Shown: one piece after another, positions 36,468 through 43,342 of the stretch | Position numbering within the stretch: position 1 is the first letter of the stretch | Layout: each line of letters begins with the position of its first letter | NCBI GenBank assembly: GCA_943788815.1 | Contig: CALSRS010000001.1 | Coordinates: forward strand, 1,673,501 to 1,737,500 | Direction of reading: 5' to 3' | Source: an uncultured Gammaproteobacteria bacterium | GTDB lineage: Bacteria; Pseudomonadota; Gammaproteobacteria; Eutrophobiales; Eutrophobiaceae | Length of the DNA stretch: 64,000 nt | Translations under genes and position numbers: made by a program | The notes under the pieces: generated by a model | The model's input: the letters and a program-made list of their open reading frames with translations, nothing else | Told to the model about the DNA's origin: nothing | The model's database searches: none

Positions 36468-37436
36468 ATGAATGTTAAACGAAAGCCGGGCACAGGACCG
36501 AATAATTCTTTAGGGCGAAAGTTTCAAGTCTGGATCGCACAACATGCAAGAGCTATGCTCGTTAGCACAGGCCAATTGAGCAAAAATCCGATTGGTAATA
36601 TATTTTCTATCGCTGTCATTGGTATAACACTGGCTTTACCAGCTGGACTACATCTGATTATCAATAATGCTACACAAATACTTGAAAACTGGGAGGGCAA
36701 TGTACAGGTCGCCATATACCTAAAACCTCATGTCGATGAGGCACAGGCCAGACAACTAAGCCAGAACTTGCAAGCTGATTCTGTAATAGAAAATATTACT
36801 TTAATCACAAAGGAACAGGCATTAAACGAATACAAAACCTTGTCTGGCTTTGCCGAAGCACTAGAGGCTCTGGAGGAAAATCCCTTACCTAACGTGCTAA
36901 TTATACGCCCAAACATTAATAGCCTGTCATCTGTGGCAGGCAGTGAGCTGATACATCGACTGTCTAATATGGAAGAAGTTGAATCTGCCCAACTTGACCA
37001 TCAATGGGTGAATCGGCTAATTGCAATTCTCGATATTCTAAAAAGGGGAGTAATTATTCTTACCACCTTATTTTCTATAGCAGTGCTCCTGATCGTTGGC
37101 AATACCATGCGTCTTTCAATTTTTAACAAGCGAACAGAAATTGAAATTGATAAATTATTTGGGGCTACAAACTCATTTATACAACGGCCATTTTTATATA
37201 CTGGATTAATATATGGTGCAGGAGGAAGTCTGGTCGCCTGGTGTTTGCTATTACTGTTAACGTTTATCATACAAGACCCGGTTAATCAGCTTTCTATACT
37301 TTATGGTAGTGACTTTGCAATCAATGGTCTAAATGCCAAAGAAGTATTTGCACTTTTTGGGATCGGCTCGGGCCTTGGATTGCTGGGCTCCTGGATTGCT
37401 GTCGGCCGGCACCTTAGCGCCACAGAACCTACTTAA
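36468..37436 (+). CDS. ftsX: cell division protein FtsX
   Basis: 322 residues, four membrane helices: about 45-68 (FSIAVIGITLALPAGLHLII), then a periplasmic domain (about 75-175), and three in the C-terminal half (about 190-215, 240-265, 290-312). IEIDKLFGATNSFIQRPFLYTG is the typical loop before the last helices. It couples FtsE ATPase to periplasmic murein hydrolase activators. It begins 2 bases after ftsE. Confidence 0.95.
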   Translation: MNVKRKPGTGPNNSLGRKFQVWIAQHARAMLVSTGQLSKNPIGNIFSIAVIGITLALPAGLHLIINNATQILENWEGNVQVAIYLKPHVDEAQARQLSQNLQADSVIENITLITKEQALNEYKTLSGFAEALEALEENPLPNVLIIRPNINSLSSVAGSELIHRLSNMEEVESAQLDHQWVNRLIAILDILKRGVIILTTLFSIAVLLIVGNTMRLSIFNKRTEIEIDKLFGATNSFIQRPFLYTGLIYGAGGSLVAWCLLLLLTFIIQDPVNQLSILYGSDFAINGLNAKEVFALFGIGSGLGLLGSWIAVGRHLSATEPT

Positions 37437-37490
37437 GACATTGAAATAATTAAATTTTATTTATTTTCTCACTTAGAACTATCCCTCCTA

Positions 37491-37517
37491 TTGGCACTCT
37501 AACGTAAGGAGTGCTAA
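37491..37517. promoter_or_regulatory. CIRCE element (HrcA operator) upstream of rpoH
   Basis: TTGGCACTC (37491-37499), 9 bases, GAGTGCTAA (37509-37517). The CIRCE consensus is TTAGCACTC-N9-GAGTGCTAA, so 17 of 18 conserved bases match and the spacer is exact. CIRCE is bound by the heat-shock repressor HrcA. The element lies 31 bases upstream of the rpoH ATG and covers the predicted promoter, a position suited to repression. Confidence 0.92.
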
Positions 37518-37520
37518 AAT
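37491..37520 (+). promoter_or_regulatory. predicted sigma-70-type promoter of rpoH
   Basis: TTGGCA (37491-37496) and TAAAAT (37515-37520) are 18 bases apart, a fair sigma-70 match. Both boxes lie in or touch the CIRCE arms. A start near 37527 would leave a leader of about 22 bases with a GGAAGAAG ribosome site before the ATG at 37549. Other promoters inside ftsX are possible. Confidence 0.6.
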
Positions 37521-37548
37521 TTAACCTATCCCCACAAGCAGGAAGAAG

Positions 37549-38394
37549 ATGAATTTACAACTAACAGTAGCCAATGGTTCCATAGAAGCTTACGTTCAAA
37601 GCGTTAATAGTATTCCGATCTTGAGTGTAGAGCGTGAGCAAGAGTTGTTTGAACGGTTTAAAAACCATGAGGACCTTGAGGCAGCCAGAGAAATCGTCAT
37701 GTCACATCTTCGCTTTGTAGTCAAAGTTGCTCGCGGATATAACGGCTATGGTTTACCGCAGGCCGACTTAATCCAGGAGGGAAATATAGGCCTGATGAAG
37801 GCTGTGAAGCGTTTTGATCCGGCCGTAGGCGTTAGGCTGGTCTCGTTTGCCGTTCATTGGATACGCGCAGAAATGCATGAATATATATTGAGAAACTGGC
37901 GAACTGTTAAGGTAGCGACTACAAAGGCTCAACGTAAGTTGTTTTTTAACCTTCGGTCTACAAAGAAACGACTTGGGTGGCTGTCTCAAGAAGAAATACG
38001 ATCTGTTGCCGATGACCTCGGGGTAAGCCCTAAAGATGTAGTGGAAATGGAAAAGCGTATGAGTGCCCATGATGCCTCTTTTGACGGACTTGATACGAAT
38101 GATGATCATGATATTTCCGCTCCAGCATTTTACCTTGAAGATCAGGGCAATGGTCCTGAACAAGAGATTGAATCCAGGCAAGATGATGCACTTGCAGCTG
38201 AGGGTCTAAAACTGGCCCTGAATTCCCTTGATCAAAGAAGCAAGGAAATCATATCCAAACGGTGGCTAAGCCCAAAAAAGCAAACGCTGCAAGAACTGGC
38301 GGCACAATATGGCGTATCAGCCGAACGTATCAGGCAACTAGAACAAAATGCCATGAAAAAATTACGATCGTCAATATCAGAAAATGCTTCATAG
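37549..38394 (+). CDS. rpoH: RNA polymerase heat-shock sigma factor sigma-32
   Basis: 281 residues. Region 2 has [19 protein letters not shown] (about 74-92) and [16 protein letters not shown]. The RpoH box [15 protein letters not shown] (about 128-142) distinguishes it from other sigma factors. Region 4 ends [20 protein letters not shown]. It directs transcription of chaperones and proteases. The 112-base gap after ftsX contains a CIRCE element, so regulation may include HrcA repression. Confidence 0.97.
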
Positions 38395-38524
38395 AAGCCC
38401 CGCCCGACCGGCCATTTTGGTTAAATTAATCGACAACTAATCAAAGACCTTCTAGACTAAGCGCTCAGACTAGCCGTCTGCAATCATGACTTAGAAAACA
38501 TTTCGATACTTCAGGGGGGAACCG

Positions 38525-41983: not shown

Positions 41984-43342
41984 ATGGCACTTGCAGTCGC
42001 GATTTTCCTGCTTGTAGTAGGCTCCATAATCTTTCATTTAGTCAGCCCCTGGTGGTTTACACCGATTGCGTCCAACTGGACAGCTGTTGACTCTACCGTT
42101 GAGCTCACTTTTATTGTGACCGGCATAGTATTTGTGTTGGTCAATGGCTTCCTGATTTACTGTGTCGTCAAGTTTCGGCACAAAGAGGGGCACCGTGCGC
42201 ACTATGAGCCGGAAAACAAGAAGCTTGAGATTATCCTGATAGCGATTACCTCCATCGGAGTCATTGCCATGCTCGCCCCCGGCCTGTTTGTCTGGGCAAA
42301 TTTTGTAGACGTGCCTGACGATGCCCTGGAAGTAGAAGTAGTAGGTCAGCAATGGCGATGGTCATACCGCTATCCTGGTAGCGATGGTGTCTTTGGCAGT
42401 ACTGACGTCAGCCATATGACGCATGAAAATCCTTTGGGAATCAACCCGGAAGACCCCAGCGGTCAGGATGATGTCATTGTATACAATGCGGACCTTCGCC
42501 TTTTAAAAGACAGGCCTGTTAAATTGTGGCTGCGCTCGAAGGACGTCTTGCACAACTTTACGGTAGCCCAGTTCAGAGTAAAAATGGACCTGGTGCCCGG
42601 CATGGTAACCCACCTATGGTTAACACCAACCCTGGCAGGAGAATATGACATTCTCTGCGAAGAGCTCTGTGGAGTCGCACACTACGCCATGCGCGGTAGG
42701 GTAATAGTAGAAGAAGAGCCTGCGTATAGTAATTGGGTCGCCTCGCAAAAGACCTTTGCCCAGACACAACAGGAAAGTGGCACGGACATTAACAACGGTA
42801 GGGCGCTGTATGCGGTCTGCGCATCTTGCCATGGTCAATCCGGAGAAGGGAATGAAGCCCTCAATGCGCCGCGGCTTGCGGGCATGTCTTCCTGGTACAT
42901 TGAAAATCAGATTTTTAAATATAAAAATGGCTATCGCGGCACACATGAAGACGACACCTATGGCCGACAAATGGTCCCCATGGCGGCAACTTTAGCCAAT
43001 GAGGCCTCGGTAAAAAATGTAGCCGCATTTATCGAGTCCCTGGCAGACACACCTAATAATCAAACGGTAACGGGCGATATAGAAAATGGTCGACGGCTTT
43101 ATACAACTTGTGGCGCCTGCCATGGCAAACAGGGTGAAGGCGTATGGAGCACCGATGCCCCTAAACTTGCGGGGCTTAACGACTGGTACATGGTGCGACA
43201 GCTACACAACTTCAAAAATGGTATCAGGGGATATCATTCAGCAGATGCAACAGGAAAACAAATGATGTTGTTGTCAGGCATGTTGAAGGACGACCAATCG
43301 ATCGATGACGTCGTCGCTTACATTAATACGCTGCAAAAATAG
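41984..43342 (+). CDS. coxB: cytochrome c oxidase subunit II fused to two cytochrome c domains
   Basis: 452 residues. N-terminal membrane helices, then the CuA cupredoxin domain with CEELCGVAHYAM (about 224-235) and the upstream His in DVLHNFTVAQF. Two c-type cytochrome domains follow, each with a haem site: CASCH (about 279) and CGACH (about 375), and late Met ligands in RQMVPMAA and KQMMLLSG. A subunit II with one haem is the caa3 form; two give a diheme form. This part of the oxidase takes electrons from soluble cytochromes or a quinol-cytochrome c reductase. First gene of a five-gene operon. Confidence 0.9.
   Translation: MALAVAIFLLVVGSIIFHLVSPWWFTPIASNWTAVDSTVELTFIVTGIVFVLVNGFLIYCVVKFRHKEGHRAHYEPENKKLEIILIAITSIGVIAMLAPGLFVWANFVDVPDDALEVEVVGQQWRWSYRYPGSDGVFGSTDVSHMTHENPLGINPEDPSGQDDVIVYNADLRLLKDRPVKLWLRSKDVLHNFTVAQFRVKMDLVPGMVTHLWLTPTLAGEYDILCEELCGVAHYAMRGRVIVEEEPAYSNWVASQKTFAQTQQESGTDINNGRALYAVCASCHGQSGEGNEALNAPRLAGMSSWYIENQIFKYKNGYRGTHEDDTYGRQMVPMAATLANEASVKNVAAFIESLADTPNNQTVTGDIENGRRLYTTCGACHGKQGEGVWSTDAPKLAGLNDWYMVRQLHNFKNGIRGYHSADATGKQMMLLSGMLKDDQSIDDVVAYINTLQK

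Follow-up and report, generated by a model that had tools for sequence, protein, structure and literature searches.

A predicted HrcA operator over the rpoH core promoter of an uncultured gammaproteobacterium shares bases with a putative sigma-E promoter

The HrcA/CIRCE, sigma-32 and sigma-E systems are usually viewed as separate circuits, and control of rpoH in E. coli as largely translational and post-translational. What, then, is a near-perfect copy of the HrcA operator doing directly before the rpoH gene of an uncultured gammaproteobacterium, and which promoter lies beneath it? We followed up a first-pass annotation of this locus in a window of 64,000 nucleotides, the whole stretch of DNA that was analyzed, with the features of the rpoH locus lying on its forward strand. 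The gene at 37549-38394 encodes an RNA polymerase sigma-32 of 281 amino acids (403.7 bits against the NCBIfam model TIGR02392, cut-off 323.1) and includes the stretch QRKLFFNLR, which resembles the RpoH box. Re-reading the sequence bore out the annotated 17/18 CIRCE with its exact 9-base spacer: the left arm TTGGCACTC (37491-37499) agrees with the consensus at 8/9 bases and the right arm GAGTGCTAA (37509-37517) at 9/9, and with the spacer TAACGTAAG (37500-37508) between them they form TTGGCACTC-N9-GAGTGCTAA, as compared with the consensus operator TTAGCACTC-N9-GAGTGCTAA. The rpoH ATG at 37549 lies, as annotated, 31 bases 3' of the site. The end coordinate first noted for the element, 37520, takes in the -10 hexamer of a sigma-70-like promoter beyond the CIRCE end at 37517.

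An inverted repeat that arose by chance would be favoured by the shortness of the element and by nothing else. At up to three mismatches 0.04 CIRCE are expected in the window, and the site found has one mismatch; at the same threshold the whole 3.23-Mb genome holds two CIRCE, one at rpoH and one before groES, with one match per strand for the reversed-pattern control. The annotation had named loss of the arms in close relatives as grounds for giving up the idea, and no such loss was seen, every one of the 30 readable family genomes having a CIRCE before rpoH, free of mismatches in 22 and with a single mismatch in 8. Mean major-base frequency within the family was 0.985 for the arm columns, 0.38 for the inner spacer positions 12-17 and 0.42 for the DNA further upstream. 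Given so low an expectation and the retention in every readable family genome, we rejected chance as an origin, its probability being negligible.

The comparison sought rpoH in 58 genomes, 37 from the family (own genome included) and 21 other relatives. Seven family rows were dropped, six for having no rpoH match at E 1e-60 (G015, G016, G026, G027, G029 and G034) and one that is cut at a contig end (G019), as was one of the other relatives with no rpoH match (G054). In other families of the class, 14 of 20 readable relatives carry an rpoH CIRCE at 15/18 or better. A further set of named loci, the 80 best among at least 590 matches and thus a non-random sample, gave 30 carriers at the same threshold among 79 readable loci, one (L173) having been dropped for want of upstream DNA. 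Named carriers include Haliea, Halioglobus, Parahaliea, Woeseiaceae, Alcanivorax, Dyella, Methylocaldum, Thiodiazotropha, Pseudoalteromonas and the betaproteobacterium Pandoraea; no rpoH CIRCE was found in the sampled enterobacteria, Vibrio, Pseudomonas, Halomonas and Idiomarina. These sets supply 74 CIRCE-bearing rpoH sites (30 family, 14 other relatives and the 30 carriers in the non-random named set), in which the left arm starts with TTA in 63, TTG in 10 and CTA in 1. The G at the third base of the left arm is common to 5/5 members of the genus. On an RpoH tree with 79 rows, of which 29 are relatives and 50 come from the named set, the distribution of the rpoH CIRCE needs at least 8 changes, 4 of them on supported branches.

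Absence of hrcA was the other finding that the annotation had set against its proposal, and the gene is present in the same genome (335.9 bits against TIGR00331, cut-off 197.2). Its contig is not that of the window; the gene order there is hrcA-grpE-dnaK-dnaJ, with a nadK-like gene on the other flank of hrcA. The suggested search for CIRCE before groESL was likewise rewarded, since the only other genomic site at three mismatches or fewer is the one at groES, which reads CTAGCACTC-N9-GAGTGCTAA in the groES direction. For the named set, the searches for hrcA and rpoE covered 50 of the 79 genomes, namely every one of the 30 that carry an rpoH CIRCE and 20 of the 49 that do not. Over the whole comparison, hrcA was found in 68/74 genomes with an rpoH CIRCE and 4/26 without (Fisher p 5.6e-13). 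The exceptions were G008, G012, G041, G052, L102 and L168, with the rpoH site and no hrcA match, and G049, L109, L118 and L130, with hrcA and no rpoH CIRCE. Only 4 independent hrcA contrasts fall on supported branches, with the rpoH CIRCE changing the same way in 1.7, the opposite way in 0.0 and not differing in 2.3 (averages); the sign test on these pairs gave p 0.5, there being too few of them, and the Fisher table therefore overstates the independent evidence for an hrcA-CIRCE link.

No CIRCE was found within 3 mismatches before the genome's own hrcA (L100, 10109-10229), and among the sites listed for four genus relatives CIRCE occurs at groES and rpoH only. Among genomes listed in both searches, hrcA is directly preceded by a CIRCE in 17 of 24 family genomes outside the genus and in 0/5 within it; the seven outside the genus that lack one are G009, G018, G019, G020, G029, G031 and G035, some of these assemblies being fragmentary, and the sites of G007, G012, G022, G025, G032 and G033 lie beyond the matches listed for the family. 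In 10 fetched loci the hrcA reading frame follows directly after a CIRCE. Autoregulation of HrcA thus seems, as judged from these sites, to come and go within the family and to be less constant than the rpoH CIRCE, which was found in every family genome where the rpoH upstream region was readable. A CIRCE at hrcA is common, not universal, and since this feature is optional, membership of the rpoH site in an HrcA regulon stands despite its absence here.

As to what lies beneath the operator, the annotation proposed a sigma-70-like promoter, and that part holds: TTGGCA-18-TAAAAT at 37491-37520 scores 10/12 (shuffle mean 0.3), its -35 hexamer (37491-37496) falling within the left arm and its -10 hexamer (37515-37520) taking in the last bases of the right arm. 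The last T of this -10 is conserved in 70/74 CIRCE-bearing rpoH upstream regions. As an account of the promoter region it is incomplete, since a promoter of the sigma-E type is also conserved across the relatives. When the rpoH upstream regions are aligned on CIRCE, a common GGAAC appears 16 bases before the site and a TAA directly after the left arm, which suggests that GGAACT(T)-N16-TCTAA at the rpoH CIRCE is a sigma-E promoter; a published sigma-E consensus has GGAACTTTT at -35 and GTCAAA at -10 (PMC1804206). In the window the putative -35 is AGAACTA (37475-37481), which matches GGAACT at 5/6 bases and starts 16 bases before CIRCE. The putative -10, TCTAA (37498-37502), follows this 7-base element after 16 bases and consists of the final 2 bases of the left arm and the first 3 of the spacer.

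The placement of this box relative to CIRCE is close to fixed. GGAACT at 5/6 or better lies at offset -16 in 42 of the 74 sites, at -17 in 7 and at -15 in 5, with no other offset holding more than 1; the resulting 54/74 at -17 to -15 compares with a mean of 0.9 and a maximum of 6 in 2000 base shuffles, and is drawn from both the family (21/30) and the genomes outside it (33/44). The last -10 base is A in 49/54 sites with the sigma-E -35 versus 7/20 without (p 3.5e-6, from related genomes that are not independent). This covarying base sits in the CIRCE spacer, where the same position is T in 92% at groES and A in 38% at hrcA. The control sites, 12 and 13 distinct CIRCE from fetched groES and hrcA loci, respectively, carried the GGAAC box in 0/12 and 0/13 cases. 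Although the operator at groES is the same as that at rpoH, the groES site follows its promoter, a TTGACA/TATAAT-like one that lies upstream of the CIRCE, and at hrcA a TTTGCA/TAAATT-like promoter spans the site. Among the CIRCE-less rpoH genes of the non-random named set, 26/49 match the sigma-E pattern at 11/12 or better, against 0.45 expected.

These counts bear on whether the rpoH CIRCE is a relic or a weak site, with HrcA acting at groES only and the arms kept for the sake of the overlapping promoters. The arms do overlap promoter elements; promoters, however, need no near-perfect 9+9 palindrome, yet 49 of the 74 sites are 18/18 and 21 are 17/18. Furthermore, hrcA and the rpoH CIRCE are both missing from 17 named genomes, 10 of which retain a sigma-E match at 11/12 or better, and therefore the promoter alone does not keep the arms. 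We consider a relic or weak site very improbable.

More is to be said for HrcA repressing the sigma-70 promoter only, with the GGAAC-like box idle in this species and TTGGCA serving as an improved sigma-70 -35. Beside the 10/12 score and the conserved last T of the -10, TTGGCA is present in 5/5 genus members, three of which (G001, G003 and G004) lack the GGAAC box, so that only 2/5 keep the sigma-E -35. Most other genomes have TTAGCA, and the step from TTAGCA to TTGGCA is one-sided, making the palindrome weaker and the sigma-70 -35 better. The window's own sigma-E -35 is weak, AGAACTA rather than GGAACTT, though in the conserved place. As far as these sequences tell, the genus may be shifting from sigma-E to sigma-70 use while HrcA control is retained. 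Against an idle box stand the GGAAC element and matching -10 at near-fixed spacing in 54/74 sites across families, and the window's retention of a 5/6 box followed after 16 bases by TCTAA; on this evidence a promoter served by sigma-70 alone is unlikely, if credible.

The sigma factor itself is encoded in the genome: its RpoE scores 292.8 bits (cut-off 236.15), and the gene after rpoE is RseA-like (54.6 bits against Pfam RseA_N, cut-off 24; 56 bits against the NCBIfam RseA equivalog, below its cut-off of 263). An exact GGAACTTN15-17TCTAA has no match anywhere in the own genome. Before the own rpoE, GGAATTT-N16-TCTATGA was read by eye. The 20/74 CIRCE-bearing rpoH upstream regions without a sigma-E -35 include those of G040, G046 and G052, which have no RpoE match; the metagenome-assembled L102 and L125, also without an RpoE match, do have the box. 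Lack of rpoE goes with a missing sigma-E -35 in 3/5 versus 17/69 genomes (p 0.12), which is suggestive only and not significant; the partial, below-cut-off rpoE match of L174 was counted as present.

Taken together, the results make it probable that an HrcA operator lies over the rpoH core promoter and would repress by covering overlapping sigma-E and sigma-70 promoters. They also suggest that several stress signals may meet there, HrcA acting together with a promoter responsive to cell-envelope damage. HrcA is kept active by GroE in other bacteria, and from the arrangement of sites we infer HrcA binding, repression, promoter use and GroE sensing at rpoH as follows. GroE-supported HrcA would bind the rpoH CIRCE and block RNA polymerase, lying across the sigma-E -10, some of the sigma-E spacer and all or most of the two sigma-70 hexamers. 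Misfolded protein would draw off GroE, upon which HrcA would release groES and rpoH together; sigma-70 transcription, joined by sigma-E transcription under envelope stress, would then supply sigma-32, which would drive dnaK and other genes. New GroEL would restore HrcA and close the loop. The dnaK gene is preceded by a sigma-32-like sequence, CTTGAAA-N14-CCTCAT (12/13 against the sigma-32 consensus, a score without shuffle comparison), and no sigma-32-like promoter was found at groES, where the best match is 9/13. With CIRCE at groES and a sigma-32-like sequence at dnaK, the own genome therefore looks to have a cascade rather than two parallel circuits, GroE being predicted to stand directly under HrcA and DnaK under sigma-32.

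Other modes of rpoH control were considered. By inspection of the translations the gene order is ftsY-ftsE-ftsX-rpoH, with the ftsX-like gene at 36468-37436 and a gap of 112 bases between it and rpoH, and no terminator between them was found in a scan of 37400-37600. A Shine-Dalgarno-like AGGAAG, as judged from the sequence, lies at 37540-37545. Rfam gave no match over 37300-38500 at E up to 1, and the folding of the predicted leader with the gene start is no stronger than that of shuffled sequences (z -0.44); a thermosensor of the E. coli style was thus not seen in the rpoH leader, although one may be present. A role for CIRCE as an mRNA hairpin was rejected: both predicted transcription starts fall inside or 3' of the right arm, and therefore their transcripts would be without the hairpin, while read-through from ftsX could carry CIRCE. 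Autoregulation by sigma-32 was also rejected, the best sigma-32 match before rpoH, 8/13, being the lowest among six regions scored.

The annotation's statement that comparative studies had found CIRCE before rpoH in some proteobacteria has a counterpart in print, at least for Geobacter sulfurreducens. A comparative genomics account from 2004 predicted HrcA control of rpoH in that species, with CIRCE (TTAGCACTC-N9-GAGTGCTAA) at -51 of the gene and, as here, another at groESL (PMC545781). Geobacter sulfurreducens belongs to a different lineage, and its hrcA, unlike that of our genome, also has a CIRCE (PMC545781). Moreover, whereas that account describes the rpoH site in one studied species, it is found here throughout the readable genomes of a family and beyond, and the passages on the rpoH CIRCE mention no sigma-E promoter (PMC545781). 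In E. coli, rpoH P3 is sigma-E dependent, and an rpoHP3-lacZ fusion serves as a sigma-E reporter (PMC2215328). The putative sigma-E promoter of the locus described here would have its counterpart in P3, and in Kluyvera, Lelliottia and Samsonia a GGAACTT-N16-TCTGA fits P3, its distance to the start of the rpoH match being 139-141 bases. The enterobacterial loci differ in having no rpoH CIRCE, and no hrcA was found in the four of these genomes tested (L113, L120, L124 and L132). Since E. coli rpoH has its own sigma-E promoter, the contrast with E. coli may reflect loss of a repressor layer rather than a different circuit.

We advance one broader proposal tentatively, and it may well prove wrong: in most gammaproteobacteria that keep HrcA, the operator and the sigma-E -10 would form a composite element with shared bases that works as an AND gate, full expression of rpoH requiring both a shortage of GroE and envelope damage. 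Three stress circuits would thereby be joined, and E. coli P3 would be the remnant left after loss of HrcA and the operator arms. If so, many gammaproteobacteria would set their sigma-32 supply transcriptionally, through a GroE-sensing repressor on a sigma-E promoter, and sigma-E control of E. coli rpoH would be the surviving part of an older design. What is new here is a candidate sigma-E promoter sharing bases with the rpoH CIRCE; a predicted CIRCE at rpoH (in Geobacter) and sigma-E control of E. coli rpoH were already known. In the literature search no title or abstract opening was found that describes CIRCE and a sigma-E promoter together at rpoH.

Variant sites were seen in several genomes. 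Three of them, Xanthomonas pisi, Luteimonas and G048 (loci L112, L130 and, for G048, L074), have altered arms before rpoH that still lie under a GGAAC box; the left arm is TTAGCAGTC or CCGGCAGTC and the right arm GACTGCTAA, CACTGCTAA or GATTGCTAA. A search of these three genomes at two mismatches gave no site in which both arms are standard, although X. pisi carries a single CTGGCAGTC-N9-GAGTGCTAA where a contig ends. Judging by these arms, HrcA may read a changed operator in X. pisi, Luteimonas and G048. In Pseudoalteromonas luteoviolacea (L160, L216) the gene flanked by grpE and a nadK-like gene encodes a very divergent HrcA (46.6 bits), and a genome search at two mismatches found a CIRCE at rpoH alone, so that rpoH may be the sole apparent target of this predicted repressor. 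L077 (G046) has two tandem CIRCE-like sites before rpoH, the upstream one being TTAGCAGTC-N9-GAGTGCTAA, with no RpoE match at E 1e-50 and no GGAAC box. Thiohalocapsa halophila (L118) has hrcA and four CIRCE-like sites at two mismatches, none of them at rpoH, which is preceded by a sigma-E-like GGAACTT-N16-TCGAA. Elsewhere in the window, the product of 41984-43342 resembles subunit II of cytochrome c oxidase; two CxxCH stretches were read by eye near its C terminus, and it apparently carries two fused cytochrome c domains.
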